Of a stretch of 64,000 nucleotides of DNA, positions 9,723 to 57,785 are shown one piece after another (the first letter of the stretch is position 1; every line of letters starts with the position of its first letter). A program made the translations under genes and the position numbers. The notes beneath the pieces are model-generated. The model was given only the letters and a program-made list of their open reading frames with translations, was not told the DNA's origin and did not search any database. This DNA is from Aestuariivirga litoralis (lineage in GTDB: Bacteria; Pseudomonadota; Alphaproteobacteria; Rhizobiales; Aestuariivirgaceae). The stretch lies in NCBI RefSeq assembly GCF_015714715.1, contig NZ_WAHS01000001.1, forward strand, positions 2,181,001 to 2,245,000, written 5' to 3'.

Positions 9723-10114
9723 TGCAAGACCTGATCGACGCCGCAAAGGCCGCCCGCGCATTCGCGCATGTGCCCTATTCGAAATTCTATGTCGGCGCCG
9801 CGATGCGCGATGAAAAAGGCCGCGTGCATGCGGGCGCCAATATCGAGAACGCCGCCTATCCTCAAGGCTGGTGCGCGGAATGCACAACGATCGGCCACCT
9901 GATCATGGCCGGTGGCACCAAGATCACTGAGGTCGCAGTGATGGGCAATGGCGATGCGCTGTGCACGCCGTGCGGCGGCTGCCGCCAGAAGATCCGCGAA
10001 TTTGCGAGCGATGACGTCAAGATTCATTGCTGCACGGAAGAAGGCAAACTGATCCGCACTTTCACATTGGGCGAGTTGCTGCCTTCGAGCTTCGGCCCGG
10101 AGAATCTGGCATGA
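9719..10114 (+). CDS. cdd: Cytidine deaminase
   Basis: This zinc enzyme hydrolyses cytidine and deoxycytidine to uridine and deoxyuridine. The 131-residue product is a normal homotetrameric-type cytidine deaminase, with the zinc/catalytic motifs WCAE (Cys ligand and proton-shuttling Glu) and PCGGCRQ (two Cys ligands), and NIENAAYPQG for substrate binding. Two consecutive ATG codons (9719 and 9722) overlap the upstream permease stop; either may be used. It acts on pyrimidine nucleosides brought in by the upstream transporter. Confidence 0.96.
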   Translation: MMQDLIDAAKAARAFAHVPYSKFYVGAAMRDEKGRVHAGANIENAAYPQGWCAECTTIGHLIMAGGTKITEVAVMGNGDALCTPCGGCRQKIREFASDDVKIHCCTEEGKLIRTFTLGELLPSSFGPENLA

Positions 10115-10896
10115 GCGATCTGAAATCCAAACTTGGTTCGCATCGGCCCAAGGTTGCCATCATCCTCGGCTCGGCCTTGGGGTCGGTGGTGGATGCGGTG
10201 CAGGACGCGACGGATATTCCGTACACTGATCTTTCTGGCTTTCCGGTGCCGAAGATTTCCGGCCATGCTGGCAAGGTGGTGCTGGGCAAGATCGGCGGCA
10301 AGGGCGTCGCCGTGCTGGCCGGGCGATCGCATGCTTATGAAGGTGGCAATGCTGCCGTGATGCGCCCGGCGTTGGAACAGCTGAAGGATGCCGGCATTGA
10401 GACGCTGATCCTCACCAATGCCGCAGGCTCGCTGAAAACTTCGATGAAGCCCGGCTCGCTGATGCTGATTACCGACCACATCAATTATTCCGGCATGAAT
10501 CCTTTGATCGGCCAGAATGGCGATGAGAATTTCGTGCCGATGACCAATGCTTATGACCCCGCTCTGCGCAAAGCCTTCCTCGCTGCGGCAAAGAAGGAAA
10601 AGATCGCGATCAAGCAAGGTGTCTATTGCTGGTATTCCGGGCCTTCGTTTGAAACGCCGGCGGAAATCCGCATGTTCCAGATCATCGGCGGCACGGCGGT
10701 TGGCATGTCGACAGCACCCGAAACCATCATCGCGCGCCGCCTCGGCCTGAAGGTCGCTGCGATTTCGACGATCACCAATCTGGCTGCAGGCATCAAGGGC
10801 GCATCGCCCAGTCACGAAGAAACCAAGCGCGAAGGCATGAAGGCCGCCGGCCATATGCAAAAGCTGCTCACACGCTTCTTCAAGGATCTGGAATAA
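10111..10896 (+). CDS. punA: Purine-nucleoside phosphorylase
   Basis: This 261-residue enzyme phosphorolyses purine (deoxy)nucleosides to base plus (deoxy)ribose-1-phosphate. Trimeric PNP family motifs are visible: ILGSALG near the N-terminus, the phosphate loop region GRSHAYEGG, LTNAAGSL, and GPSFETPAEIRMFQ followed by GMSTAPE. The ATG at 10111 overlaps the cdd stop (ATGA), which argues against the longer in-frame start inside cdd. Its sugar-phosphate product is the substrate of DeoB two genes downstream. Confidence 0.95.
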   Translation: MSDLKSKLGSHRPKVAIILGSALGSVVDAVQDATDIPYTDLSGFPVPKISGHAGKVVLGKIGGKGVAVLAGRSHAYEGGNAAVMRPALEQLKDAGIETLILTNAAGSLKTSMKPGSLMLITDHINYSGMNPLIGQNGDENFVPMTNAYDPALRKAFLAAAKKEKIAIKQGVYCWYSGPSFETPAEIRMFQIIGGTAVGMSTAPETIIARRLGLKVAAISTITNLAAGIKGASPSHEETKREGMKAAGHMQKLLTRFFKDLE

Positions 10897-12203
10897 TGCT
10901 GCCGCAGGAAGTCATCCGCGCCAAGCGCGATGGCCGCGCGCTTTCTTCAGCCCAGGTGAAGGAATTCATAGAAGGCCTGACCAGCGGGGCTGTCACTGAA
11001 GGCCAGGTTGCGGCTTTTGCAATGGCGGTGTTCTTCAAGGGCATGAGTGCCGATGAAGCGGTGGGCCTCACGCTGGCGATGCGCGACAGCGGCACAGTGC
11101 TGCAATGGGATTTGCCGGGGCCGGTGGTGGACAAGCATTCCTCCGGTGGCATCGGAGACAATATCTCGCTGATGCTTGCGCCGATGCTGTCGGCGTGCGG
11201 TTGCTATGTGCCGATGATTTCGGGACGCGGACTGGGCCATACGGGTGGCACGCTGGACAAGCTTGATTCGATCACCGGCTACAACACCACGCCCGACAAT
11301 GCTTTGTTCTCCTGGGTCACGCGCGAAGTAGGCTGCGCCATTATCGGGCAGACATCTGATCTGGCCCCCGCCGACAAGCGGCTTTACGGCATCCGCGATG
11401 TGACGGCCACGGTGGAAAGCGTGCCGCTGATTACCGCGTCGATCCTGTCGAAGAAACTGGCTGCCGGGTTGCAGCATCTGGTGATGGATGTGAAATGCGG
11501 CTCCGGCGCCTTCATGGCCAAGCGCGAGGATGCGCAGGCACTGGCAAAATCACTGGTTTCCGTGGCCAATGGTGCGGGACTGAAAACCACCGCCTTGATC
11601 ACCGACATGGATGAGCCGCTGGCCAAGGTGGCGGGCAATGCGCTGGAAGTGCTACACGCCGTGCGCTTCCTGAAGAATGAACTGACGGATTCGCGTGTGC
11701 ACGAAGTGACGGTGCGCCTCGGCATGGAAATTTTGCAAAGCACCGGACTTGCCACATCCGAAGACGAAGCGCGCAAGAGTCTGGAGGAAGCACTGGCTTC
11801 GGGCGAAGCGGCGGAAATCTTTGGTGAGATGGTGGCCGCACTTGGTGGGCCCACGGGTTTCATGGATGCGCCGGAGCAACATGTGCGCGCCGCCGCTTTC
11901 GTGAAGCCGGTATTCGCCGATGACAACGGCGCGGTGACCAGCATCGCCACGCGCGAGCTTGGCCTTGCCGTAATCGAACTCGGTGGTGGGCGCCGCCGCG
12001 CCGACGATGTGATCGATCACGCCGTGGGCCTCGATCATCTGCTCGGCAAAGGTTTCGCGGTGGATGGCAACACGCCGCTCGCCATGATTCACGCCAAGGA
12101 TGAGGCGGATTACGAAAAGGCCGCCGCCATCGTGAAGGCGGCTTATGTGATCGGCGATACGCCTACGGATTACTCCCCCATTCTGGAACGCATTGCGCCG
12201 TGA
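10896..12203 (+). CDS. deoA: Thymidine phosphorylase
   Basis: This 435-residue enzyme converts thymidine and deoxyuridine plus phosphate to the free base and deoxyribose-1-phosphate. It shows the pyrimidine nucleoside phosphorylase signature region GRGLGHTGGTLDKL and the phosphate-binding KHSSGGIGD segment. It has the three-part layout of the family: helical alpha domain, alpha/beta domain and a C-terminal PYNP domain with GGGRRRADD. Its ATG shares one base with the punA stop. It completes pyrimidine nucleoside cleavage for the operon. Confidence 0.97.
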   Translation: MLPQEVIRAKRDGRALSSAQVKEFIEGLTSGAVTEGQVAAFAMAVFFKGMSADEAVGLTLAMRDSGTVLQWDLPGPVVDKHSSGGIGDNISLMLAPMLSACGCYVPMISGRGLGHTGGTLDKLDSITGYNTTPDNALFSWVTREVGCAIIGQTSDLAPADKRLYGIRDVTATVESVPLITASILSKKLAAGLQHLVMDVKCGSGAFMAKREDAQALAKSLVSVANGAGLKTTALITDMDEPLAKVAGNALEVLHAVRFLKNELTDSRVHEVTVRLGMEILQSTGLATSEDEARKSLEEALASGEAAEIFGEMVAALGGPTGFMDAPEQHVRAAAFVKPVFADDNGAVTSIATRELGLAVIELGGGRRRADDVIDHAVGLDHLLGKGFAVDGNTPLAMIHAKDEADYEKAAAIVKAAYVIGDTPTDYSPILERIAP

Positions 12204-13369
12204 GCCGCGCGTTTCTGTTCATCATGGATGGTTTCGGCGTCGGCCATGCGCCGGATGCCAAGGCTTTCGGTGACGAAGGATCCGACACATTCGGGCATGT
12301 CTATGCGCAGGCCCGCCCAAGCATTCCCACGCTGGCTTCCCTCGGCCTGGGTGCTGCGGCTGAAACAACGGGTGGCACGAACGTTTTTCCGAATGCGAAA
12401 ATCATCGCGCGCCATGGTGCAGCTACCGAAGTGTCCAAAGGCAAGGATACGATCACCGGGCATTGGGAAATTGCCGGCGTGCCGTTGGCGAAGGATTGGG
12501 GTTATTTCCCCACCACCATTCCCGCCTTTCCGCAAGATTTCATGGATGCGCTCATCGCTCAGGCGAAGCTGCCGGGACTGCTGTGCCTTGGCCATGCTTC
12601 GGGCACGCAGGTGATCGAAGATTTCGGCGAGGAACATCTGCGCACCGGAAAGCCCATTGTCTATACGAGCGCCGACAGCGTGATCCAGATCGCTGCACAC
12701 GAAGCCCATTTCGGCCTGCAGCGGCTTTATGATGTCTGCGCCATCGCGCGCGAACTTTCCTATGCACTCAATATCGGCCGCGTCATCGCGCGGCCATTCC
12801 TGGGCGAAACAGCAAAGACCTTCGAGCGCACCGGCCACCGCAAGGATTATTCGGTGCTGCCGCCGCAGCCCACATTGCTTAATGTGCTTTCAACGGCAGG
12901 CCGTGATGTGTGCACCATTGGCAAGATTGGCGATATCTATGCCCATTCCGGCACGGGCCGTGAGATCAAGGTGTCCGGCATGGAAGCGCTTACGTCCACC
13001 ACGATGGCCGAAATGCCGAAGCTGGCGGATGGCGGGTTCCTGATGGTGAATTTCGTCAACTTCGACACTGACTTTGGCCATCGCCGCGATGTGCCGGGCT
13101 ATGCCAAATTGCTTGAAAGTTTCGACGCCTGGCTGGCTGGCGCGCTGAAACTTGTCGGCCCTGACGACCATCTGTTCATCACCGCCGATCACGGCAATGA
13201 CCCCAGCTTCAAGGGTACTGACCACACGCGCGAGCGCGTGCCGGTTCTGTGGTTCAATCCGAAGCAGCAGCCGGGCTCCATCGGGCTGCGCAATACGTTT
13301 GCCGATATTGGGCAGAGCATCGCGCAGGTTTTGGGCGTGGGGCCGCTGTCTTCCGGCACGGCGTTCTAA
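12200..13369 (+). CDS. deoB: Phosphopentomutase
   Basis: This 389-residue metalloenzyme of the alkaline-phosphatase superfamily interconverts (deoxy)ribose-1-phosphate and -5-phosphate. The metal-binding motifs MDGFGVGHAPDA at the N-terminus and TADHGNDP near the C-terminus are present. The GTG start at 12200 overlaps the deoA stop (GTGA). As last gene of the salvage operon it feeds pentose phosphates to central metabolism; no deoC aldolase is encoded here. Confidence 0.96.
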   Translation: MSRAFLFIMDGFGVGHAPDAKAFGDEGSDTFGHVYAQARPSIPTLASLGLGAAAETTGGTNVFPNAKIIARHGAATEVSKGKDTITGHWEIAGVPLAKDWGYFPTTIPAFPQDFMDALIAQAKLPGLLCLGHASGTQVIEDFGEEHLRTGKPIVYTSADSVIQIAAHEAHFGLQRLYDVCAIARELSYALNIGRVIARPFLGETAKTFERTGHRKDYSVLPPQPTLLNVLSTAGRDVCTIGKIGDIYAHSGTGREIKVSGMEALTSTTMAEMPKLADGGFLMVNFVNFDTDFGHRRDVPGYAKLLESFDAWLAGALKLVGPDDHLFITADHGNDPSFKGTDHTRERVPVLWFNPKQQPGSIGLRNTFADIGQSIAQVLGVGPLSSGTAF

Positions 13370-13411
13370 CGCCGCCATCATTCCGCCATGCGGCGCAGGC
13401 TGATTGTGATC

Positions 13412-13432
13412 CGGGGGCGTGAGTTGATGAGG
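13412..13432 (+). promoter_or_regulatory. Leader element shared with the next gene, copy 1
   Basis: The sequence CGGGGGCGTGA, five bases and GATGAGG end just before the ATG at 13440. The same arrangement recurs at 13871-13892 before the paralogous gene, 29 instead of 28 bases upstream of its ATG. The GATGAGG part probably serves as ribosome site; the G-rich part has no assigned role. It looks like part of the tandem duplication. Confidence 0.45.
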
Positions 13433-13439
13433 ACGCACC

Positions 13440-13811
13440 ATGTTCCTGAACACTGTGCTGCTTGCTGCCGCACTTGCCAATCCAGCCCCCGCTGATTTTG
13501 CTCAGGTGGGCGATTTGAGCGGGCGCTATAAAACCTTTGGCACCAATTTTGATGGATCGGTCTATCGCGGCGAAGTGCTGATCACCGAAGTTTCCAAGAC
13601 TAGCTGCAAGATCGCCTGGGTCACTGGCCGCACATCCGCTACGGGCATTTGCATGCGCGTCGAGAATGCCTTCAGCGCCACATATCAAATGAATGACGGC
13701 ACCTCGGGCCTCGTCATTTACCGCATCGCGGATAATGGCACCTTGGCTGGTGTGTGGACCGTTGCCGGTCGAGACGGCATGGGCACGGAAGTGCTCACCC
13801 CGGTGAAATAG
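13440..13811 (+). CDS. Small secreted protein of unknown function, tandem paralogue 1
   Basis: I do not recognise this 123-residue protein. It starts with a hydrophobic stretch (MFLNTVLLAAALANPAPA) that could be a short signal peptide. The mature part is predicted mostly beta from its alternating pattern and holds two Cys residues, in TSCKIAW and TGICMR, likely to form a disulfide in the periplasm. It closely resembles the next gene product over its whole length, sharing GTNFDGS, TGICMR, NAFSA, DG.SGL.IY and a GTEVLTP tail. Its signal region is less typical than that of the neighbour. Confidence 0.7.
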   Translation: MFLNTVLLAAALANPAPADFAQVGDLSGRYKTFGTNFDGSVYRGEVLITEVSKTSCKIAWVTGRTSATGICMRVENAFSATYQMNDGTSGLVIYRIADNGTLAGVWTVAGRDGMGTEVLTPVK

Positions 13812-13870
13812 CTCGGACTTTCCGCTTTTCAACTTGCCATCAGGCAGCGATGGCTCCTATTCATTTCACG

Positions 13871-13892
13871 CGGGGGCGTGAAACGATGAGGG
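13871..13892 (+). promoter_or_regulatory. Leader element shared with the previous gene, copy 2
   Basis: CGGGGGCGTGA, six bases and GATGAGG precede the ATG at 13900, repeating the element at 13412-13432. Conservation outside the coding sequence suggests a recent duplication or a shared translational signal. Confidence 0.45.
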
Positions 13893-13899
13893 TTCCATC

Positions 13900-14274
13900 A
13901 TGATTTTGAAGTCCGTTCTGGCAGCCGCTGTGCTGATCGCCGCGCCGTCTTTCGCTTTGGCCGCCGATGGCGATGTCGGTGGCAAATACAAGGTTGAAGG
14001 CACCAATTTCGACGGTTCGAAATATTCGGGCGATGCCGAAATCACCATCACCTCCGGCACCACCTGCAACATCGAATGGCATACGGGTGCGGATGCGAAT
14101 TCCACCGGCATATGCATGCGCAATGACAATGCCTTCTCCGCTGCTTACGTGATGAAGGATGGTTCGGTCGGCCTCATCATCTACAAGATGAATGATGACC
14201 GCTCGATGGACGGCATCTGGACGCTATCGGGCAAGAATGGCTCCGGCACCGAAGTGCTGACACCGGCGAACTGA
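13900..14274 (+). CDS. Small secreted protein of unknown function, tandem paralogue 2
   Basis: This 124-residue protein is the second copy of the tandem pair. It has a clear Sec signal peptide (MILKSVLAAAVLIAAPSFALA, cleaved before ADGD). The mature part shares with copy 1 the GTNFDGS, TGICMR, NAFSAAY and GTEVLTP blocks and the two Cys residues. No enzymatic motif is visible. The size and regular beta-like pattern suggest a small periplasmic binding or structural domain, but function is unknown. Confidence 0.78.
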   Translation: MILKSVLAAAVLIAAPSFALAADGDVGGKYKVEGTNFDGSKYSGDAEITITSGTTCNIEWHTGADANSTGICMRNDNAFSAAYVMKDGSVGLIIYKMNDDRSMDGIWTLSGKNGSGTEVLTPAN

Positions 14275-14283
14275 GTTTCGTAT

Positions 14284-14312
14284 TCACCCTTCTCCCTCTG
14301 GGAGAAGGGTGA
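14284..14312 (-). terminator. Inverted repeat between convergent genes
   Basis: CACCCTTCTCCC and GGGAGAAGGGTG form a 12-bp stem around a 4-5 base loop, between the second small secreted protein and the convergent choV gene. It probably terminates transcription from one or both sides and belongs to the same motif family as the repeat at 2523-2679. Confidence 0.6.
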
Positions 14313-14315
14313 TGT

Positions 14316-15506
14316 TCAGCTTTCCCGCTTCAATACTGCGCGCAGAACGTCCCTTACGCCGATGGCACCCGCGAAGGTGCTGTCGTCGTTGAACAGCGCC
14401 ACTGGGGCTGTCTCTGACATATGCATGGCTAGCATTACGGTTTTAAGGCTCGTGCCCGGTGTGGCCCAGAAGACCGGTTTGGACTTGGCAGAGAAGACTT
14501 TCTCGGCTTCGGTGCAAGGCACCCATTCCGCCAGTTCACCATCCCGTTCGACGACAGTGACCTTGTTATCCTTGTCGAGCTTGAAGCGGGTGGTCTTGCG
14601 GCGGTCGAGCCACATCCAGCCACTCTTCTCGGTTTCCAACTCATGGGTGGCGCGCATCACGTTCCACGCCGTCAGCACCGAGAGTGGATTCACATTGGCG
14701 ATGAAGTCACTCACATAGGCATTGGCCGGGCGCAGCACGATATCTTCAGGCCGGCCAGACTGCACGATGCGCCCGCCTTCCATGATCGTAATAGTGTTGC
14801 CGATCTTGAGGGCTTCCTCGAGATCGTGGCTGACGAAGATGATCGTCTTCTTCAGGGTTTTCTGCAGCTGCAGCAATTCATCCTGCAGCTTGGTGCGGAT
14901 CAGCGGATCAAGCGCCGAGAACGGCTCGTCCATCAGCAGGATCGGCGCCTCAGTGGCAAACGCCCGCGCCAGGCCCACACGCTGTTGCATGCCGCCGGAC
15001 AATTCATGGACGTATTTGCCCGACCATTGGTCAAGACCCACCAGCTTCAATTGCCGGTCCACCTTGGATCTGCGTTCAGCCTCCGGCATGCCGGCAAGTT
15101 CAAGACCGAAGCCCACATTCTCATGCACGGTGCGCCAGGGCAGAAGGCCGAATTGCTGGAACACCATGGCCACGTTCTTCTGGCGGATGCGGCGCAACGT
15201 GGGCTCATCGCAAGTGACCACGTCCACCATCTTGTTGCCGTCGAACACTTCAATGGCACCGCGCGTGACTTTGTTGAGGCCATTGACGCCGCGCAACAGG
15301 GTGGATTTGCCAGAGCCTGAAAGGCCCATCAGCACGCTGATCTCGCCTTCCTTCACTTCCAGCGAGGCGCCGGCACAACCCAGCACAGTGCCAGTCTTTT
15401 CAAGGATTTCCGCGCGGGTGGAACCGGCGTCGAGCATGGTTTGGGCCTGCGGCACATTGCGGCCGAACAGAATATCGACATTCTTGAAGATAACAGCCGT
15501 GCTCAT
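14316..15506 (-). CDS. choV: Choline ABC transporter ATP-binding protein
   Basis: This 396-residue ATPase belongs to the ProV/OpuAA group of quaternary-amine importers. The N-terminal ABC domain carries Walker A GLSGSGKST, signature LSGGMQQR, Walker B ILLMDEPFSALDP and the switch His in SHDLEEA. A C-terminal region of about 110 residues follows, in the position of the regulatory CBS domains of the family. With choW and choX it forms the high-affinity choline uptake system of rhizobia. Its start overlaps the choW stop by four bases. Confidence 0.94.
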   Translation of the reverse strand: MSTAVIFKNVDILFGRNVPQAQTMLDAGSTRAEILEKTGTVLGCAGASLEVKEGEISVLMGLSGSGKSTLLRGVNGLNKVTRGAIEVFDGNKMVDVVTCDEPTLRRIRQKNVAMVFQQFGLLPWRTVHENVGFGLELAGMPEAERRSKVDRQLKLVGLDQWSGKYVHELSGGMQQRVGLARAFATEAPILLMDEPFSALDPLIRTKLQDELLQLQKTLKKTIIFVSHDLEEALKIGNTITIMEGGRIVQSGRPEDIVLRPANAYVSDFIANVNPLSVLTAWNVMRATHELETEKSGWMWLDRRKTTRFKLDKDNKVTVVERDGELAEWVPCTEAEKVFSAKSKPVFWATPGTSLKTVMLAMHMSETAPVALFNDDSTFAGAIGVRDVLRAVLKRES

Positions 15507-48870: not shown

Positions 48871-48948
48871 GCACCCGTAGCTCAGCTGGATCAGAGCGCT
48901 GCCCTCCGAAGGCAGAGGTCAGGGGTTCGAATCCCTTCGGGTGCGCCA
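48871..48948 (+). tRNA. tRNA-Arg (anticodon CCG)
   Basis: The complete cloverleaf is visible: acceptor stem GCACCCG/CGGGTGC, D arm GCTC-GAGC, anticodon stem CTGCC/GGCAG with loop CTCCGAA (anticodon CCG at 48906-48908, reading CGG), T loop TTCGAAT and an encoded CCA end. It lies between the divergently read polA gene and the end of the sugar ABC operon. Confidence 0.96.
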
Positions 48949-48991: not shown

Positions 48992-50008
48992 TTACTCGAC
49001 CCGGGTGGGCGCCGCGCCTGATCCTGCCGCCTTGGCAGGTGCCTGAGTGGGACGGCTAAAGAAGACCCGCACATGTTCCATCAGGTTCGGCACCAGGACA
49101 GAGCATATGAGCAATACGCCGATGACTGCCGTTTGGCGGTGCCCGTCAATATTCATCAGCGACATGCCGTTGCGCAGGTTGAGCACAATCAGGATAGAAA
49201 GCACGACGCCCAGCATGGAGCCCCTGCCGCCAAAAATGCTGACGCCACCGAGAAGTACCATGGTGATGATGTCGAGTTCGAAGCCATAGGCGGCATCGCC
49301 GCGTACTGAAGAAAGGCGTGCGGCATAGAGCAAGCCCGCCGCTGCGGCAATGACACCAGACATGACGTAAATTGCGGTCTTCACCCGCGCGGTGCGCACG
49401 CCGGAATAACGCGCCATTTCGGCATTGTTGCCGATGACGAAAACCTTGCGGCCAAAAGAGGTGAAGTGCAGCACATAGCCAAGGATGACCAACAGCACGA
49501 TGAACAGCACGATTGAGAATGGCAGTGGGCCCACCAAAGGATCACGCGCCAGGCCGTTGAACCAATCTGGAAAGCCATTGATGCCGCGATCTTCCAGCAG
49601 CACGCGGGCAAAGCCGCGGAAGCCGATCAGCATGGCAAGCGTTGCAACCAGCGAAGGAATGCCGACATAGGTGATCCAGAACGCATTGAAGGCGCCAGCG
49701 GCGGCACCCACCGCGAGACAGATGGCAATCGCCATGACCGGATTCCAGCCACCTGAAATCAGACTGCCGAAGACGCAAGCCGCAAGCCCCATCACCGAAG
49801 CCACGGAAAGATCAATCTCGGCGCTGATGATCACGTAAGTCATGATCAGGGCAACAATTGCTTTCTCGATCGACAGCGTGAACAGGTTGATCTGGTTCTG
49901 CACGGTAAGGAATTCAGGAACGATCAGCGCATTGGCGGCCATCGTCGCGATCAGGATGACGAGCAGCAAGCCTTCCCAGGTTTTGAAGAAGCCCTTCATC
50001 TCAAACAT
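48992..50008 (-). CDS. Sugar ABC transporter permease, RhaQ-like
   Basis: This 338-residue inner-membrane protein of the BPD_transp_2 (ribose/rhamnose) family has eight to ten helices and the conserved motifs [16 protein letters not shown] and [17 protein letters not shown]. It is the second permease of a DeoR-binding protein-ATPase-permease-permease operon whose order equals rhaRSTPQ of Rhizobium. It overlaps the first permease gene by eight bases. The rhaU and rhaK genes that normally follow are absent; the tRNA-Arg gene lies next. Confidence 0.88.
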
Positions 50009-51005
50009 CCTTCTTGGCGCGCAGCCGGGTGAACGACCGCGTCATGAACGTATCTGCCGCCACCGCAAGGATGATCAGCATGCCGAGCAGCGCGTCGCGC
50101 CAGAACTCGCTGATCACCTGCCAGCGCAGCAGGCTGTTTTCCAGCGTATCAACCAGTACGGTGCCGAGCACCACGCCCAGCATCGAGCCCGAGCCGCCGA
50201 AAATGTTCACACCACCGACCACGATTTCACTGACTGATTTGAACTCAAAACCAAGCCCTGCGCCCACGGTGATATTGCCGAAGCGCACCAGGAACATGAA
50301 ACCGCCCAGGCCCGCCATGGCACCGGAGAGCACAAAGGCCCAGAACACCACCCGCTTGCTGTCAATGCCGGACATGATCGCCGCATCGGGATTGGAACCC
50401 ACAGCATAGAGTTTGCGCGCTGAACGCAAACGGGAAAGCGCGATGCCAAAAACAAGTGCTGCCGCCAAGGCCAATGCAACCGTCATGCGCAGATCGAAGC
50501 TGCCAACAGTGAAAAGGCTCAGCTGAGGAAAATCAGCGACCCATTTGGGCATGCTGTCGGTGGTGATAGTGCGTGAGTCTGAGTATTCAATCAGCAAGGC
50601 GCGGAAGATCGCCAGCGTGCCCAGTGTGACGATGATCGAAGGTACGCGGCCGTAAGACACCAGCGTTCCATTGATCGCGCCAAAGCAACCGCCGAGGACC
50701 AGGAAGGCCACGATAGTGAGAACCGGGCCCAGATCATAATGGCCCAGCATGTCACCCATGAAGAAGGCGAGGAATCCCACCAGAGAGCCGACCGAAAGAT
50801 CCACGTTACGCGTGATCACCACCAGCGCCTGTCCGATGGCGACGGGCAGGAACAAGGCCGCACTGGTCGCGATGCGGTTCAGCATGCGCGGGCTCAGGTA
50901 GTTATCGATCTGAGTCGCGAAGAACAAAATCAGCAGGACCAGCACAATGGCCAGCGCGATCAGGCGCAAATTCTGCGGATGCACTTTTTGAAGAAGAGAC
51001 ATCAT
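50001..51005 (-). CDS. Sugar ABC transporter permease, RhaP-like
   Basis: This 334-residue BPD_transp_2 permease contains [20 protein letters not shown] and [19 protein letters not shown], the paired ATPase-contact and signature segments of sugar permeases. Two consecutive ATG codons (51005, 51002) are possible starts; the first overlaps the ATPase stop by four bases. With the next gene product it forms the channel of the importer. Confidence 0.88.
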
Positions 51006-52513
51006 GATGCCAAAGCCGCCTTTTCATGCTTGGCCGTGGCAATGGCCATGATTTTTTCAGGATTTGCATCGGCGATATCGAAGATTGACTTCTGCAGGCC
51101 TTCACGCATCACCACAACCCGGTCTGCCAGTGTCAGGACCTCGGGCAAATCGGATGAGATCACGATGATGGCCACGCCCTGCGATGCCAGTTCGCGGATG
51201 ATGTTATGCACTTCCGTCTTGGCGCCCACATCGATGCCGCGGGTGGGTTCGTCAAAAATCAGGATGCGCGGTTTGGTCTCCAGCCATTTGGCCAGCATGA
51301 CTTTCTGTTGGTTTCCGCCAGAGAGCTTGCCCACTTCGATGATCACATTTGGTGAACGGATGGAGAGCTGCTTTCTGTAGCTTTCCGCCATGACGAATTC
51401 AGATTTGCGGTCGATAAAGCCGAGCCGGCGTGTGAATTTGCCCAGCGAAGCCAACGACGCGTTGATGAAAATCGGCATCAGCATGGCAAGGCCCAGTTTG
51501 CGCCGGTCTTCCGACACATAGGCGATGCCCTGATCCATGCTGTCTTGCGGTGTTTTGATATTCACCACCTTGCCATCTATTTCGATGGTGCCACGATGCG
51601 CCGGTTCAACGCCGAAGATCGCGAGGCCAATGTCAGTGCGACGCGAACCGATCAAACCGGCAAAGCACAGGACTTCGCCCTTGTGCAGGTCAAAGGAAAT
51701 GTCGCGGAACACGCCGTCGCGACCAAGACCCTTCACCGAGAGGATTTTCTCGCCCACTTTATTGGCGGCCTTCTTCACGGCGAAATCGTCTACCGCGCGG
51801 CCCACCATGTCACGCACCATTCCGGCTTGGGTGACTTCAGCGACAGGCTTGGTGGAAATGCGCTTGCCGTCGCGCATCACCGTAACGCGGTCAGCGACGA
51901 CGAAAATTTCCTCAAGGCGGTGGCTGATATAGATCACGGCCACGCCGCGTTCTTTCAACGCCTTGGCAATGGCGTGCAGGCGGTCCACTTCATGGGCAGA
52001 CAGCGAGGCTGTGGGCTCGTCCATGATCAGGACTTTGACATTGAGTGAGAGCGCGCGGGCAATCTCTACGGTCTGCTGCTCGGCGAGCGTGAGGCCGGAG
52101 GCCGCACGTTTCACTTCCAGCGAAACGCCCAGGCGCTTGATGATTTCTTCGGCTTCAGAATATAGCTTGCTCCAGTTCATCACAGGCGACAGGGCGCTGT
52201 GGCTGATGAAGATGTTTTCCGCCACGTCGAGATCGGGGAACACCATGGGTTCCTGGAAAATGGCAGCCACACCAACAGACTGCGCGTCCTTGGTGGTGTT
52301 GAGCGTAACAGGCTTTCCTTCCGCGAAAAGCTCGCCTGAATCCGGCTGGTACACGCCGGTCATGATCTTGATGAGCGTTGATTTACCAGCACCATTTTCG
52401 CCGACAATGGCGTGCACTTCGCCTGGGAAAATTTCCAGCGAGACGTCAGACAGTGCTGCCGTCATTCCAAAGGACTTGGAAATGTGGCTCAGCTCAAACA
52501 GAGGAGTGGTCAT
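51002..52513 (-). CDS. Sugar ABC transporter ATP-binding protein, RhaT-like
   Basis: This 503-residue ATPase has two ABC domains: Walker A GENGAGKSTL, signature LTLAEQQTVE and Walker B VLIMDEPTASL in the first, and signature LSGGNQQKVM with Walker B ILIFDEPTRGIDVGA in the second. The second domain's Walker A region is degenerate, as in RbsA/RhaT-type ATPases. I chose the ATG at 52513, where MTTPLFELSHISKSF begins; the open frame continues upstream into the attenuator region without homologous sequence. Confidence 0.92.
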   Translation of the reverse strand: MTTPLFELSHISKSFGMTAALSDVSLEIFPGEVHAIVGENGAGKSTLIKIMTGVYQPDSGELFAEGKPVTLNTTKDAQSVGVAAIFQEPMVFPDLDVAENIFISHSALSPVMNWSKLYSEAEEIIKRLGVSLEVKRAASGLTLAEQQTVEIARALSLNVKVLIMDEPTASLSAHEVDRLHAIAKALKERGVAVIYISHRLEEIFVVADRVTVMRDGKRISTKPVAEVTQAGMVRDMVGRAVDDFAVKKAANKVGEKILSVKGLGRDGVFRDISFDLHKGEVLCFAGLIGSRRTDIGLAIFGVEPAHRGTIEIDGKVVNIKTPQDSMDQGIAYVSEDRRKLGLAMLMPIFINASLASLGKFTRRLGFIDRKSEFVMAESYRKQLSIRSPNVIIEVGKLSGGNQQKVMLAKWLETKPRILIFDEPTRGIDVGAKTEVHNIIRELASQGVAIIVISSDLPEVLTLADRVVVMREGLQKSIFDIADANPEKIMAIATAKHEKAALAS

Positions 52514-52542
52514 GGGAAACTCTGGGAAATCCGCGGCAATCT

Positions 52543-52578
52543 GCAAAAAGAGGCCGTCACCCGCGAGGGATGACGGCC
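52543..52578 (-). terminator. Stem-loop with T-run after the sugar-binding protein gene
   Basis: On the minus strand GGCCGTCA (complement of 52571-52578) pairs with TGACGGCC (complement of 52552-52559), extended by CCC/GGG, and TCTTTTT follows. It lies between the binding protein and ATPase genes, so it probably works as a partial terminator that keeps the binding protein more abundant. Confidence 0.75.
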
Positions 52579-52595
52579 AAACTGTCAGTTGAGGA

Positions 52596-53642
52596 TCAGG
52601 GCTTGTCCACGTTGTCTTTGTTATAGACGGTGAACGGTCCCATGAGGATGCGCTTGGCACCCTTGCGGCCTGGATCTTCCTCGATCTTGAAGGTGCCCAT
52701 GCGGCCAGCCTTGAACTCTTCGCCCACGTCACCCTTGATGGCGCCGGTGGCCAGAGCATAGGCCGTCTGATAGGTCAGGTAGCCGAGGTCGACGAAGGAC
52801 CACAGAGCGAATTCCGGAGCGCAGCCTGCCTTGGTGTAGGTCACCATGTCAGACGGCAGGCCGAGGCCCGACACCTTGGTCTTGTCGCAGAGCTTTTCGT
52901 CGGTCATCGCCTTGGCTGCAGCCACGATGCCAACCGTGGTCGGCGACATGATGAGCTTCAGGTCCTTGTGCTTGTCAACGAGAGCCAGAGCGGCATTGTA
53001 GGACTTTTCCGACTGGTCATCGCCATACACAACGTCAACCAGCTTGATGCCCTTGTACTTGTCGCCCTTCAGGGTTTCCTTCATGGCGGCAATCCAGGCG
53101 TTCTGGTTTGCTGCGTCCGGGGTGGCCGAGAGAACGGCAAATTCACCGCTGCCGCCCATCGTGTCGAGGGCCATATCGGCCATCACGACGCCGATGGAAC
53201 CGAAGTCCACCTGAGCGACGAATACCGATTCACCCTTGCCCGAAGGAATGGGCGAGTCCCAGGTGACAACCTTGGTGCCAGCCTTCTGGGCTGCTTCTGC
53301 AGCCGGAGCAACCTGATCACCAGCGTTGTTCGACAGCATGATCACAGCCTGCTTCTGCGTGGTGGCGTTGGTGATCATTTCGATCTGGCCAGCCACGGAG
53401 TCAGTCGGAGGCGGTGCTTCATAGGTCAGCTTGCCGGTGTTACCCAGTTCCTTGGCGGCTTCTTCAGCGCCCTGATGGGCTTGATCGAACACAATGTTGC
53501 CCGAGAATTTGGGCAGGAACACCGTGTTGATGGCGGCACCCGGCTTGGCCATCATGGCGTCGGCATAGGCCACGCCGGCCATCATGGCCGAAGCGAGAGC
53601 GGCAACGACGCCGGCCTTAACGATAGTCTTCACATTCAGCAT
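52596..53642 (-). CDS. Sugar ABC transporter substrate-binding protein, RhaS-like
   Basis: This 348-residue periplasmic protein of the Peripla_BP_4 (ribose/rhamnose) type has a signal peptide ending at GVAYA. It resembles RhaS of Rhizobium at [39 protein letters not shown] and [13 protein letters not shown] chose the ATG at 53642 because AGGAGG sits 6-7 bases upstream. Rhamnose is only one possibility: without rhamnose catabolic genes nearby, the ligand could be another sugar, cyclitol or sugar derivative. Confidence 0.92.
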
Positions 53643-53683
53643 TTGGTTTCCTCCTGTTTTGCTGTTGTCGTCCTCTCCGCCGC

Positions 53684-54496
53684 TCAAGCGACGGAGAATT
53701 TTTTTGTCGCTGTAGAATTCATATCCTCTTGAGCGATAATCACTTCGACACCTTGGTCACGAATATGCTTCAGAAGCTCTGCGGGTGCGCCTTCATCGGT
53801 GATCAGCGTGTGAACGCGCGAGAATTTGCAGACCACCATGCTGCCGCGCGGCTCAAATTTCGAAGAGTCCGCAACCACGATCAGCTTGTCGGCGCGCGAC
53901 AGCAATTTGGTTTCCGACCGGGTGACCAGAGGATCACCTTCAATCACGCCCATGCTGGTGATCGACGAGCAGCTCATGAACATCTTGGATGCGGTGAATT
54001 GCTGGATGGCATCTTCGTCGAAGGGCGAAAGGATAATGCCCTGCTCGCGGTACACTTCGCCGCCGGCCAAGATGATCCGATTGTTGCTGGTGGCAATCAG
54101 CTCCTGAGCGATGGGAAATGAATTGGTGAGGATCTGCAGCTGCTTCTGGCGCAGGAATTCCGCCATGTACCACATGGTGGAACCGGCATTCAGGATGATG
54201 GACTCGCCATCATTGCAAAGTTGGGCGGCAGCCGCGGCCACAGCGCGCTTCTTTGCCACGTTCAAACCCTGGCTCACGCCGAAAGCGCGCGTAGCGAGAT
54301 GCGGCTGCTCCGGCATTTCGCGCATTTCAATGCCGCCATGAATGCGGTTGATCTGGCCCATCTCCATCAGCTTGGTGAGATCGCGGCGGATGGTGGCAGA
54401 GGAAGCGCCAGTGGCATTGACCAGATCACGCACGCGGATCACGCCGCGCTGGCGGACTTGCGCCAAGATCAATTGCCATCTTTCCCGTTCATGCAT
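53684..54496 (-). CDS. DeoR family transcriptional regulator, RhaR-like
   Basis: This 270-residue repressor-type protein has an N-terminal DeoR helix-turn-helix ([22 protein letters not shown]) and a C-terminal sugar-phosphate-sensing DeoRC domain with [14 protein letters not shown] and [11 protein letters not shown]. It is promoter-proximal in the importer operon and divergent from the desaturase operon. The 241 bases between them hold duplicated inverted repeats, good candidates for its operators. A sugar phosphate is the likely inducer. Confidence 0.93.
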
Positions 54497-54550
54497 GGGC
54501 GGGATAAACTGTTATTTCAGATGATGAGTCAATGCACTTTCGCTCATATT

Positions 54551-54575
54551 GCATCGCAAATCGTCATTGCGCTGC
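54551..54575. promoter_or_regulatory. Operator-like inverted repeat, copy 1
   Basis: GCATCGCAAA, six bases and TTGCGCTGC form an imperfect inverted repeat. The same arms occur at 54644-54670 with eight bases between them. The site lies 55 bases upstream of the DeoR gene start and is a candidate operator for that regulator. Confidence 0.6.
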
Positions 54576-54600
54576 AAAACAAGTTTCAAAAATACAGAAT

Positions 54601-54628
54601 TTGATCGAGTTAGATCGAAATCGATCAA
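54601..54628. promoter_or_regulatory. Central inverted repeat in the DeoR/desaturase divergent region
   Basis: TTGATCGA (54601-54608) and TCGATCAA (54621-54628) are perfect 8-bp reverse complements around a 12-base spacer. The element lies near midway between the two flanking repeats of the other type, so a second regulator may bind here. Confidence 0.5.
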
Positions 54629-54643
54629 GCATATGATCATGTC

Positions 54644-54670
54644 GCATCGCAAACGCTCTTTTTGCGCTGC
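54644..54670. promoter_or_regulatory. Operator-like inverted repeat, copy 2
   Basis: GCATCGCAAA, eight bases and TTGCGCTGC repeat the arms of the site at 54551-54575, 93 bases away in the same orientation. It lies 68 bases before the hydroxylase gene start, on the other side of the divergent promoter region. Confidence 0.6.
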
Positions 54671-54737
54671 GAAATGACGGTTTACAATTGAACCTGATCG
54701 GATTTGCTGCGTATTTTGCAAACCCGGAGGATCACCT

Positions 54738-55763
54738 ATGCAGACCAAGTTCGACGGCAAGCGTGACAAGCGCGGAGATTGGACGCCACCCGAAGTGATC
54801 GGGTATGCGCCGATTTTTGATGGACCCTTCAGGCCGCTTGCCATCCTGAAATGGGTGTTTGGCTATCCCGGCTTTTTCCTGCCGTTTAACGTGATCTATA
54901 TGGCGGTGCCGATCATCACGTGGGCTTATTTCACTCCGGCGCTGGAAAGCATGGTGACATTCCAGTTCGGCTGGATCGCTTATATTTTCATCCGCAATCT
55001 CATTCTGACTTTGGTTGTCGTAGGGGCCTGGCATCTGTGGCTTTATGTGAAGCAGTCACAAGGCACTGACTGGAAGCACACTTCAAAGTGGCTGTCGCGC
55101 GATAATCCGATCTTCCTGTTCCGCAACCAGTTGTTCGACAATCTGTTCTGGACCATCTGCAGCGCCATTCCGATCTGGACGGCTTATGAAGTGCTGACGA
55201 TGTGGCTCTACGCCAATCATCTCATTCCGTTCGTGTCCTTCACTGAACATCCGATTTATTTCTGCGTGCTGATGTGCCTGGTGCCGCTGATCCGCGACCT
55301 GCATTTCTATACGATCCACCGCATCAGCCATTGGGGACCGCTCTATCGCTGGGTACATTACTTGCACCACAACAATGTGAATGTGGGGCCGTTCTCCGGG
55401 CTGGCCATGCATCCGGTCGAGCACCTACTGTATTTCTCAGGCGTGATCGTCCACTGGATCATTCCGTCGCATCCGATCCATGCGATCTTCCACTTGCAGC
55501 ATGCCGGCATTACGCCGGCACAGAGCCATTCAGGTTTTGAGCGCGTGGTGATTGTCGACGGCGTGGGCGTGAAGACCGGCGATTTCTTCCACTATCTCCA
55601 TCACAAATACTTCGAGTGCAATTACGGCGCTGACGGAGTGTTCCCGATGGATAAGTGGTTCGGCACTTTCCACGACGGCACCAAGGCTTCGAAAGAACGC
55701 ATGGACGAGCGCTTCCTGTCTCGCGCCGCGCAGAAGGCCGCCGCCGAGGGCAACCAGCCGTGA
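54738..55763 (+). CDS. Sterol desaturase/fatty acid hydroxylase family membrane protein
   Basis: This 341-residue integral membrane oxygenase belongs to the histidine-box di-iron superfamily. Ligand clusters are HFYTIHRISH (H189, H194, H198), HYLHH (H207, H210, H211), HPVEH (H225, H229) and HYLHH (H285, H288, H289), with hydrophobic helices near residues 45-65, 75-105, 135-160 and 170-187. It would hydroxylate or O-demethylate a substrate using O2 and electrons from the Rieske ferredoxin three genes downstream. GGAGG is present upstream of the ATG. Whether it acts on a lipid or on the imported small molecule is open. Confidence 0.88.
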   Translation: MQTKFDGKRDKRGDWTPPEVIGYAPIFDGPFRPLAILKWVFGYPGFFLPFNVIYMAVPIITWAYFTPALESMVTFQFGWIAYIFIRNLILTLVVVGAWHLWLYVKQSQGTDWKHTSKWLSRDNPIFLFRNQLFDNLFWTICSAIPIWTAYEVLTMWLYANHLIPFVSFTEHPIYFCVLMCLVPLIRDLHFYTIHRISHWGPLYRWVHYLHHNNVNVGPFSGLAMHPVEHLLYFSGVIVHWIIPSHPIHAIFHLQHAGITPAQSHSGFERVVIVDGVGVKTGDFFHYLHHKYFECNYGADGVFPMDKWFGTFHDGTKASKERMDERFLSRAAQKAAAEGNQP

Positions 55764-56734
55764 AATATCGCACCTTCGGGCGCACCGGATGGAAGATCAG
55801 CGAAATCGGTTTCGGTGCCTGGCAGATCGGCGGCGACTGGGGCAAGGTGGATGATGACGCCTCGATCGACACACTGCATTATGCGTTTGGGAAAGGCATC
55901 AACTTTGTCGATACGGCAGAGCTTTACGGCAATGGCCATAGCGAAGAGGTTGTTGGCCGCGCGCTGAAAGCGTGGCGCGGTGACAAGATTTACGTCGCTA
56001 CAAAAGTGCGTCCTATCCAATGGCCGAATCCGGATGATGATGCGCCACAGATGCGCGGGCGCTTTCCGGTCTGGTATATACGCGACAATGTGGAGAAGTC
56101 GCTGAAACGGCTGGGCGTGGAGCGCATTGATCTTTTTCAGCTCCACAGCTTTACGCCCGATGCGGTTTTGAATCTCGATTGGCTGGAAACGCTCTCGGCA
56201 CTGCGCCGCGAGGGCAAGATTGATCATATTGGCATCTCGCTACGCGACTTCCGCCCGGATGAGGGGATTGATGCAGCGCGCTTCGGGCTGATCGATTCCG
56301 TGCAGGTTGTCTTCAACATGTTCGAGCAGCGCCCAGCACAACGCCTGTTTCCCGCCGGTGAGAAAACTGGCACTGCTTTCATCGCGCGCGTGCCGCTGGA
56401 TTCCGGTTCGCTTGTCGGGCACTGGACGAGGGATTCTTATGCGGGCTTTGAGCCCGGCTCGCAGCCGCATCAGATGTTCCGCGGTGAACGCTTTGCTAAA
56501 ACCTTGAAACGGGTCGAGGCATTGAAGGCTTTGTGCAAACCCCACTACGACACGCTGGCCGAAGCCGCGATGCGCTATGTGTTAAGTGCGCCGCAGCTTT
56601 CAACACTAATACCGGGCATGAAGAACCGCGCGGAGGTTGATATGAATATCGTCTATAGCGATGGCGATGTATTTCCGGAGTCTTTGAAGGCGGCGCTCGC
56701 AGGCCACAGCTGGATCAGGAACTACTATCAGTGA
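55760..56734 (+). CDS. Aldo/keto reductase
   Basis: This 324-residue NAD(P)H-dependent (beta/alpha)8-barrel oxidoreductase has the tetrad context intact: Asp and Tyr in NFVDTAELYGNGHSE, Lys in YVATKV and His in FQLHSF. The N-terminal YRTFGRTGWKISEIGFGAWQIGGDWG is like aldose-dehydrogenase and glyceraldehyde-phosphate-reductase relatives. I chose the GTG at 55760, which overlaps the hydroxylase stop (GTGA); an upstream in-frame ATG lies inside the hydroxylase gene. It probably oxidises a sugar or reduces a ketone in the pathway. Confidence 0.9.
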   Translation: MKYRTFGRTGWKISEIGFGAWQIGGDWGKVDDDASIDTLHYAFGKGINFVDTAELYGNGHSEEVVGRALKAWRGDKIYVATKVRPIQWPNPDDDAPQMRGRFPVWYIRDNVEKSLKRLGVERIDLFQLHSFTPDAVLNLDWLETLSALRREGKIDHIGISLRDFRPDEGIDAARFGLIDSVQVVFNMFEQRPAQRLFPAGEKTGTAFIARVPLDSGSLVGHWTRDSYAGFEPGSQPHQMFRGERFAKTLKRVEALKALCKPHYDTLAEAAMRYVLSAPQLSTLIPGMKNRAEVDMNIVYSDGDVFPESLKAALAGHSWIRNYYQ

Positions 56735-57471
56735 CAAATTACGCCGATGTGCAATTTGAATATCTGCTGCCGTGGCAATTGCGCGAACGGGTTGCTTCAC
56801 GCCCGGTGGCTTATATTCCGCTGGGCACTTATGAATGGCATGGCGAGCATTTGCCGGTGGGGTTGGATTCGCTCACCTCGCACGGCCTGTGCCTGCGTGC
56901 TGCGATGGTGGATGGTGGCATAGCCTTTCCGCCGCATTACTACGGCACAGGTGGCGGGCATGGCGCTTATCCTTGGACCATTATCAAAGACAATCCAGAT
57001 GAAATCGAAAGCCAGTTGCACTTCACGCTGCAGCGGATGGAAACATTTGGCTTCAAGCTGGCCGTGTTGTTCTCGGGCCACTTTGCCGACACGCAGCTGG
57101 ACATGATCGACCGCGTTGCCAGTCGCTGGAACAGCAAGGACGGCGCGCTGAAAGTTTTCGCTACGGCGGTGAACCGCATCGAAGGGCTGGCCATCGGGCC
57201 CGATCATGCTGCACTGTTTGAGACGACATTGCTGGTGGCGATGCATCCGGAACTGGTGCATCTGGAAAACCTGGCGGACACACCATTGCCTGTGGATGAG
57301 AATCCCTTCGGCACGCAACGTCACGACACAGCGCATCCGCTCTACGGCATTTTCGGGCCAGACCCGCGCAAGTTCAACCCCGCGCAAGCCAAACCGCTGC
57401 TTGATGCGAGCGTGGCCTGGCTGGTAAGCCAAGTGCGAAAACATATTCCCACGAAAGACCAAAACACATGA
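56731..57471 (+). CDS. Creatininase family amidohydrolase
   Basis: This 246-residue metal-dependent hydrolase has the family start IPLGTYEWHGEHLPVGLD, where E35, H37 and D46 are expected metal ligands, the SGHFADTQ segment in the place of NGHGGN, and HAALFETTLLVAMHPELV with the last Glu ligand. The family includes creatininase, formamide hydrolases and, as I recall, a hydrolase that opens diketo-inositol rings. No creatine pathway genes are nearby, so a sugar or cyclitol lactone/diketone hydrolase fits better. The GTG start overlaps the aldo/keto reductase stop. Confidence 0.88.
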   Translation: MTNYADVQFEYLLPWQLRERVASRPVAYIPLGTYEWHGEHLPVGLDSLTSHGLCLRAAMVDGGIAFPPHYYGTGGGHGAYPWTIIKDNPDEIESQLHFTLQRMETFGFKLAVLFSGHFADTQLDMIDRVASRWNSKDGALKVFATAVNRIEGLAIGPDHAALFETTLLVAMHPELVHLENLADTPLPVDENPFGTQRHDTAHPLYGIFGPDPRKFNPAQAKPLLDASVAWLVSQVRKHIPTKDQNT

Positions 57472-57785
57472 GCACCAACTGGATTGAAGCATGCGCCGCC
57501 GAGGCGATCCCGCTGGAAGACGTGATCCGCTTTGATCACGCCGGCAAGACCTATGCGATCTACCGCTCGCCTGAAGACAAGTATTTCGCCACCGACGGGC
57601 TGTGCACGCACGAGAAAATTCATCTGGCTGATGGCTTGGTGATGGACCATCAGATCGAATGCCCCAAGCATAATGGTGTGTTCGATTATACGACGGGTGC
57701 GGCCAAGGGCGCGCCGGTCTGCATCAATCTCAAAACCTATCCGGTCAAGGTTGAGAGCGGCAAAGTCTTTATCAGCGTGGCTTAA
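57468..57785 (+). CDS. Rieske [2Fe-2S] ferredoxin, MocE-like
   Basis: This 105-residue soluble ferredoxin has the full Rieske cluster motif: C46-T-H48 in CTHEKIHL and C65-x-x-H68 in CPKHNGVF. It resembles MocE, which delivers electrons to a membrane oxygenase during rhizopine O-demethylation in rhizobia. Here the partner is probably the histidine-box hydroxylase in the same operon. No ferredoxin reductase (MocF) is in the window, so electrons must come from an enzyme encoded elsewhere. The ATG overlaps the creatininase stop. Confidence 0.92.

Follow-up and report, generated by a model that had tools for sequence, protein, structure and literature searches.

We analysed a 64,000-nt window of the Aestuariivirga litoralis genome (C1:2181001-2245000; 3.33 Mb in 4 contigs) and found two divergent operons that appear to belong together. 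One is headed by a gene for a DeoR-family regulator and encodes a sugar importer (S, T, P and Q); the other encodes a membrane di-iron hydroxylase (HYD), an aldo/keto reductase (AKR), a creatininase-family metallohydrolase (CRT) and a MocE-family Rieske ferredoxin (FER). In the scheme that we infer, DeoR would bind between the operons and control both as one catabolic regulon. The importer would take up a rhamnose-like 6-deoxy sugar, most likely an O-methylated one. FER, together with a ferredoxin reductase whose gene lies at a different place in the genome, would feed HYD, acting as a membrane di-iron oxygenase; HYD would hydroxylate the methoxy group, and the product would break down to formaldehyde and the free sugar. 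The latter would then enter the rhamnose route, whose genes (RhaI, FGGY kinase and RhaD) form a separate locus, or be oxidized by AKR and hydrolysed by CRT. Taken as a whole, from the regulon through methyl-sugar import and demethylation by HYD to the downstream route, this chain is a serious candidate that falls somewhat short of probable, and its parts differ in strength.

The gene order, protein families and divergent layout given by an earlier, sequence-only reading of this DNA were borne out by open reading frames, Pfam and NCBIfam. On the forward strand, HYD (54738..55763), AKR (55760..56734; PF00248, 201.2 bits; GTG start), CRT (56731..57471; GTG start) and FER (57468..57785) follow one another, and each of the three joints is an exact 4-bp overlap (GTGA, GTGA and ATGA), just as that reading had stated. 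FER scored 175.5 bits on TIGR02377 (cut-off 136.15), which agrees with its description as a MocE-like ferredoxin. The DeoR gene (53684..54496; PF08220, 52.4 bits; PF00455, 150.4 bits), the presumed controller of both operons, lies on the reverse strand with its start 241 bp from that of HYD; its product stays under the UlaR cut-off (NF010034; 205.9 versus 244). Downstream of it on the same strand lie the genes of the binding protein S (52596..53642; ATG after AGGAGG), the two-domain sugar ABC ATPase T (51002..52513; two PF00005 stretches; ATG start) and the sugar ABC permeases P (50001..51005; PF02653, 114.5 bits) and Q (48992..50008; PF02653, 122.8 bits).

The intergenic region between HYD and DeoR contains an inverted repeat twice, with the half-site TCATATTGCATCGCAA. 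The first predicted operator, O1 (54544..54583), is imperfect, and its half-site is conserved in L083, a related locus described below. The second, O2 (54637..54677), has 17-nt arms that are 88% complementary across a 7-nt gap. The core pattern GCATYGCAAN{5,11}TTGCGMTGC had two exact sites in the whole 3.33-Mb genome, both in this intergenic region; the reversed pattern, used as a control, had none, and the shuffled window gave a mean of 0.00 over 100 shuffles. As the pattern was derived from O1, O2 and L083, these counts show its rarity and are no independent discovery. The independent, cross-species part of the predicted operator evidence is the repeat of L083 itself. There the window's repeat recurs in the 102 bp upstream of HYD, with 18-nt arms that are 94% complementary across a 7-nt gap, and the core pattern appeared in none of 200,000 shuffles of the bases of these 102 bp. 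Matches occurred in seven of 232 loci, namely L083 and six overlapping stretches of the window's own region; none was found in the related locus L104 or in the 10 other loci of the importer's clade. Taken together, the arrangement and the repeats make it very probable that both divergent operons form one regulon, with DeoR as its presumed regulator and O1 and O2 as the putative binding sites. An operator shared with the genome's own rhamnose regulator was considered and dropped; the rhaD-deoR region there has other repeats. Closely spaced GATCGA boxes lie between O1 and O2 (54598-54628), and no match between them and the own rhamnose operator was established.

Two relatives from other genomes connect HYD to the importer. 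L083 (JAIBJH010000097.1), from a Hyphomicrobiales metagenome-assembled genome (MAG), holds the best HYD relative among the 80 loci that were kept, and in it HYD-DeoR-S-T-P-Q form a single co-directional run (end of HYD 3228, ATG of DeoR 3221). Identities to the window are 68% for HYD, 69% for DeoR, 76% for S, 66% for P and 70% for Q. Divergent to this run, at the contig end, lies RhaD (TIGR02632, 960 bits; cut-off 568), the only RhaD above cut-off in that genome (next 121 bits). In L104, from an alphaproteobacterial MAG, HYD (50%) stands immediately upstream of S (67%), T, P (59%) and Q (64%), again co-directionally. The A. litoralis genome itself has five HYD copies at four importer loci, with labelled sugar importer genes within ~5 kb of each. 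The view of the sequence-only reading that importer and enzymes form one pathway thus gained support for the link between importer and HYD, from the shared repeat, the runs in L083 and L104 and the position of the other four HYD copies near importers. We regard it as probable that HYD acts on the importer's cargo.

A third relative is L128 (from a Granulosicoccaceae MAG), where HYD (49%) begins 115 bp past RhaI on the same strand, RhaD precedes this RhaI-HYD pair and a true RhaS importer lies on the opposite strand. We kept this putative link between HYD and rhamnose genes but rank it below those of L083 and L104, since in its HYD clade the other members are without labelled rhamnose genes. 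In the HYD tree (120 rows, FastTree, many weak forks) the window and L083 were paired (99), and L104 and L128 fell into other clades, so that rhamnose-type loci may have gained HYD-type genes on more than one occasion. L077, from another genome of the same genus (G247), was set aside as a link between HYD and rhamnose; its HYD clade stands with other importers, and it has its own LacI and binding protein.

What the importer carries can be approached through S. On the RhaS model (TIGR02637) S scored 297.8 bits, below the cut-off of 342.25, and the RhaS proteins of G247 and L128 scored 492 and 450. The label 'RhaSTPQ-like' of the sequence-only reading is therefore apt, and plain 'RhaSTPQ' would be wrong. 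The solved sequences nearest to S carry rhamnose-binding names (5bq3, 211 bits; 4kvf, 187 bits), in line with the rhamnose-like sugar proposed as its cargo. Relatives of S at E<=1e-40 occur in 118 of 397 genomes of the order, the set also used for HYD, FER, AKR and CRT. Identities show a gap: 10 other genomes have S at 64-72%, and the remaining matches listed are all at or below 44%. In the S tree, the window, L083, L104 and this close group form one clade of 13 rows with support 100, set off by a long branch, by which S belongs to a sister clade of RhaS.

We compared all 10 other loci of this clade in the order. Eight have genes for a RhaM-like mutarotase and for GntR, Gfo/Idh, TIM-barrel, ADC-like and SDR proteins; seven have an enolase-superfamily gene and a 2-hydroxyacid dehydrogenase, and three an FAH-type hydrolase. 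The RhaM-like protein is over the PF05336 cut-off (86 versus 23) but under that of TIGR02625 (71.5 versus 99.6). Its presence argues for a rhamnose-like pyranose as substrate. As an observation apart, the operon conserved around the RhaS sister clade in L221-L227 and L229 (RhaM-like, enolase-superfamily, ADC-like, SDR, Gfo/Idh, TIM-barrel and GntR genes) looks like an unassigned sugar pathway.

The sequence-only reading had left the substrate open between an O-methylated or deoxy sugar and a cyclitol. Of these, a rhamnose-like deoxy sugar is the better match for this locus and the cyclitol type for the paralogous HYD loci. The binding proteins of two other HYD clusters come nearest to the rhizopine model NF052284 (171 bits for L040 of the same genome, 148 for L066 of G247; cut-off 420), and in G247 and G308 the AKR-CRT pair lies within HYD clusters that have IolG- and IolE-like genes. 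A cyclitol such as a methyl-inositol or a rhizopine-like compound is nevertheless an improbable substrate for the window's own system: S scored 19.6 on the rhizopine model compared with 297.8 on RhaS, most loci of its clade have a RhaM-like mutarotase, and RhaD lies opposite the L083 operon.

HYD is over the PF04116 cut-off (64 versus 31 bits), and this is its only Pfam match; it did not match PF00487 (FA_desaturase, MocD-type). The histidines H194, H198, H207, H210, H211, H285, H288 and H289 are invariant in two alignments (26 and 23 sequences), and the histidine-box pattern is present in 23 of 23 HYD members. The HYD model (mean predicted local distance difference test score, pLDDT, 82.5) is rich in long helices; its best Foldseek match in the PDB had an E-value of 3.1, and a profile search gave no PDB sequence at E 0.001. 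Among the 397 genomes, HYD (E<=1e-20) occurs in 41 and FER (E<=1e-25) in 61, both together in 29 (Fisher p 6e-18, without a correction for phylogeny); of 69 HYD copies, 20 have FER at a distance of 10 kb or less. We also labelled neighbours by similarity in 38 neighbourhoods, 80 loci and the window, which together hold 128 HYD copies, 122 of them distinct; this set consists of nearest relatives rather than a random sample, and many of its contigs are short. Within 8 kb of HYD, a binding protein or permease was labelled for 40/122 copies, FER for 30/122, a reductase for 27/122 and a PanB-like gene for 21/122. An importer, ferredoxin, reductase, PanB-like or IolE-type neighbour was present within that distance for 57/122. 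The PanB-like (ketopantoate hydroxymethyltransferase-like) gene is seen, for example, at the HYD loci L038, L040, L066, L072 and L119; its product could move formaldehyde carbon to or from folate.

HYD is predicted to be an O-demethylase, and some of its gene neighbourhoods hold hints of formaldehyde release. FolD and PurU convert formaldehyde-derived folate carbon to formate. In L119 (Phyllobacterium sp. KW56, 9076-14833) genes for a PanB-like protein, HYD, a ferredoxin, a reductase, PurU and FolD lie on one strand within 5.8 kb. The ferredoxin is MocE-like at 130.9 bits (cut-off 136.15), PurU scored 327 (cut-off 286) and FolD 479 (cut-off 396); the reductase is AndAa/HcaD-like but below its cut-offs, and the PanB-like gene is below those of PanB. 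This run fits formaldehyde release, and the module looks like a complete demethylation and one-carbon set. On C2 of the A. litoralis genome, FER, an AndAa/HcaD-like reductase (C2:~540.4-541.7 kb) and PurU (331) are near HYD. The sequence-only reading had suggested looking for a ferredoxin reductase elsewhere, and one is thus encoded with a second HYD/FER cluster in this genome; the window cluster itself has no reductase gene, and in this it departs from the single-cluster arrangement of MocDEF. As a further observation, C2:~527-546 kb (L038 and L039) packs three HYD paralogs into ~18 kb, together with two importers and PanB-like, IolG-like, ferredoxin, reductase and PurU genes. For O2-dependent demethylation, as put forward in the sequence-only reading, the evidence is indirect and consists of the MocE ferredoxin linkage and of PurU/FolD neighbours in two well-scored cases. 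On balance we favour O-demethylation as the activity of HYD, with less assurance than its tie to the importer.

Close relatives of AKR (E<=1e-60) number five copies in four of the 397 genomes, and all five lie within ~6 kb of HYD; a further relative (67%) is in L098. Since AKR tracks HYD across substrate types, this suggests that it acts in an auxiliary reaction, on either the substrates or the products of HYD. CRT has close relatives (E<=1e-25) in three of the 397 genomes, all of the same genus and all adjoining AKR. They retain E35, H37, D46, H117 and E164 (an E-x-H...D...H...E pattern), which we take to be metal ligands. CRT is over the PF02633 cut-off (98.1 versus 31.3), and Foldseek matched it to the creatininase fold, on a weak model (mean pLDDT 67.5). 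It resembles IolN and creatininase in fold and in metal-ligand residue pattern but is far below both cut-offs (NF041098, 28.4 versus 245; TIGR04448, 55 versus 235). Conserved adjacency of the four enzyme genes, which the sequence-only reading had led us to look for, did not hold up: close AKR and CRT relatives are as rare as given above, and the HYD-AKR-CRT-FER run was not found outside the source genome (no more than five or six candidates were scored in each genome, so that weak copies could be missed).

These two enzymes are also at the centre of another explanation, in which HYD hydroxylates a deoxy-sugar carbon or performs some other oxidation, and AKR and CRT finish a non-phosphorylating route by lactone or diketone hydrolysis, with no demethylation at all. 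The tracking of HYD by AKR and the residue pattern kept in CRT would suit such a route, as would the dehydratase, the dehydrogenases and the occasional 2,4-didehydro-3-deoxy-rhamnonate hydrolase-like gene carried by members of the importer clade. However, the PurU and FolD neighbours of HYD in L119 and the PurU gene on C2 of the A. litoralis genome point to a released one-carbon unit; the MocE linkage also speaks against such a route, and we consider this explanation quite unlikely.

Several findings weigh against the chain proposed at the outset. HYD is beside the importer in none of the 10 other loci of the importer's clade in the order, and FER, CRT and a window-type DeoR are likewise found in 0/10; an AKR-like gene (26%) is in 1/10. 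Among the ten genomes concerned, G360 and G015 have HYD at another place. We therefore rejected the idea that the importer clade is dedicated to HYD; HYD appears to be an addition to this importer type and no constant partner. S is also the sole RhaS-like protein of the genome (297.8-297.9 bits; next 52.7) and so could serve plain rhamnose. Only 5/122 HYD copies have a labelled PurU or FolD at 8 kb or less: a pair that shares the PurU gene on C2 of this genome, the copy in L119, and those in L103 (a 27% match, weak) and L062 (FolD alone, weak), so that the hint from PurU and FolD is sharp but narrow. RhaI was not found in the L083 or L104 genomes (both MAGs, completeness not stated), and in the L104 genome no RhaD exceeds the cut-off, what there is amounting to a 300-bit fragment close to a contig end; the route after RhaI thus does not hold generally. 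The steps assigned to AKR and CRT are guesses. Finally, 53/122 distinct HYD copies are without any labelled neighbour, in varied contexts.

The statement that rhamnose catabolic genes are missing was correct beside the importer, where neither rhaU, rhaK nor any other such gene was seen among the open reading frames at 46.5-61 kb, read by eye, but not for the genome. At C1:~1819-1825 kb it has a group of RhaI (814 bits, cut-off 647), RhaD (1035), a DeoR gene and an FGGY kinase, among which no importer genes stand; at the like rhamnose locus of G247, DeoR is followed by S, T and P. These genes cut both ways, in that the regulon may feed the rhamnose route and S may itself be the rhamnose importer. 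The importer could, then, be a plain L-rhamnose importer that moved away from rhaI and rhaD, with the HYD operon serving another substrate. The lone RhaS-like protein, the rhamnose locus that lacks an importer and the clade loci that lack HYD are as this would predict. It does not explain the shared operator-like repeat and its L083 counterpart or the co-directional HYD-importer runs of L083 and L104. Moreover, S shares 39% identity with the true RhaS from G247 and falls in a different clade, and two genomes of the order (G100 and G261) hold both importer types. We judge this alternative unlikely.

The HYD copies without labelled neighbours bear on a further possibility, that HYD modifies membrane lipids or hopanoids and stands beside the importer incidentally. 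PF04116 is named for fatty-acid hydroxylases, and the long helices of the model would suit a lipid enzyme. Yet all five own HYD copies are near sugar importers, the runs of L083 and L104 are co-directional, and 57/122 copies have an importer, redox, PanB-like or IolE-type neighbour within 8 kb. We hold a role in lipid modification to be highly improbable.

The nearest described system is MocDEF. Excerpts of PMC10107442 describe rhizopine-inducible mocDEF in Sinorhizobium/Rhizobium, and the Moc system also occurs in the excerpted text of PMC5789663. The HYD clusters resemble it in having a membrane oxygenase gene, a MocE-family ferredoxin and a FAD reductase beside a sugar-type importer (PMC10107442, in excerpt). 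They differ in that HYD belongs to PF04116, whereas labelled MocD-like proteins belong to PF00487, and in that the window cluster is without an adjacent reductase, MocA, MocB or MocC and S is no rhizopine-binding protein. We take MocD itself to be a PF00487 protein, and O-demethylation of rhizopine of the MocDEF type was reportedly described by Bahar in 1998. Clusters L173 (C1:~11.8-18 kb of the same genome), L178 (G264) and L179 (G308) combine a PF00487-type MocD-like gene (a label by similarity) with FER, a PanB-like gene, LacI and a sugar importer, and they seem to parallel the HYD clusters with a different oxygenase family.

Like rhizobial RhaRSTPQ, the window has a DeoR gene heading a binding protein, an ATPase and two permeases in the same order. 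It differs in S, which stays below the cut-off for RhaS and forms part of a separate clade, in having no rhaU or kinase gene downstream, and in the oxygenase operon that diverges from the importer genes; the window's operator repeats also differ from those of the genome's own rhamnose locus. A second comparison is offered by a P450 of marine Flavobacteriia, which, according to the abstract-level text of PMC10033563, demethylates 6-O-methyl-D-galactose to the sugar and formaldehyde with redox partners. In the same text, an auxiliary alcohol dehydrogenase is needed for growth and does not handle formaldehyde; a parallel with AKR is possible. The system proposed here differs from what is outlined there in its predicted membrane di-iron enzyme, its sugar and its AKR in place of a zinc alcohol dehydrogenase. 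No described pathway with the present gene set was found in the literature searched, which comprised titles and abstract openings and left subscription literature largely outside.

Methylated rhamnose occurs in arabinogalactan-proteins of mosses and ferns, as stated in the excerpted part of PMC7612518. Methyl sugars are also present in other polysaccharides. For the oxidative removal of such methyl groups, the precedents that we found are a P450 and, reportedly, the Moc system. It is a serious possibility, put forward slightly more cautiously than the chain for the window itself, that HYD belongs to a widespread class of PF04116 membrane di-iron enzymes whose targets are not lipids; they would remove O-methyl groups from imported sugars and cyclitols by way of MocE ferredoxin and pass the carbon to folate through PurU, FolD and possibly a PanB-like transferase. 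The window, in which such an enzyme is combined with an importer from the RhaS sister clade and a DeoR operator of its own, would then be the O-methyl-rhamnose branch, to which AKR and CRT add oxidation and hydrolysis. If soluble sugars and cyclitols are indeed demethylated by a family named for fatty-acid hydroxylases, the annotation of many genes, in Alphaproteobacteria as well as in other phyla, would have to be revised, and a single defined reaction could be tested by growth, ligand binding and formaldehyde release.

Two minor observations complete the picture. The excerpted text of PMC5789663 reports a gene on a symbiotic plasmid that is induced by root exudate and belongs to the sterol desaturase/fatty acid hydroxylase superfamily, and gives it no function. 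A tRNA-Arg (ccg) gene is located at 48871-48948, just past Q, the last permease gene.

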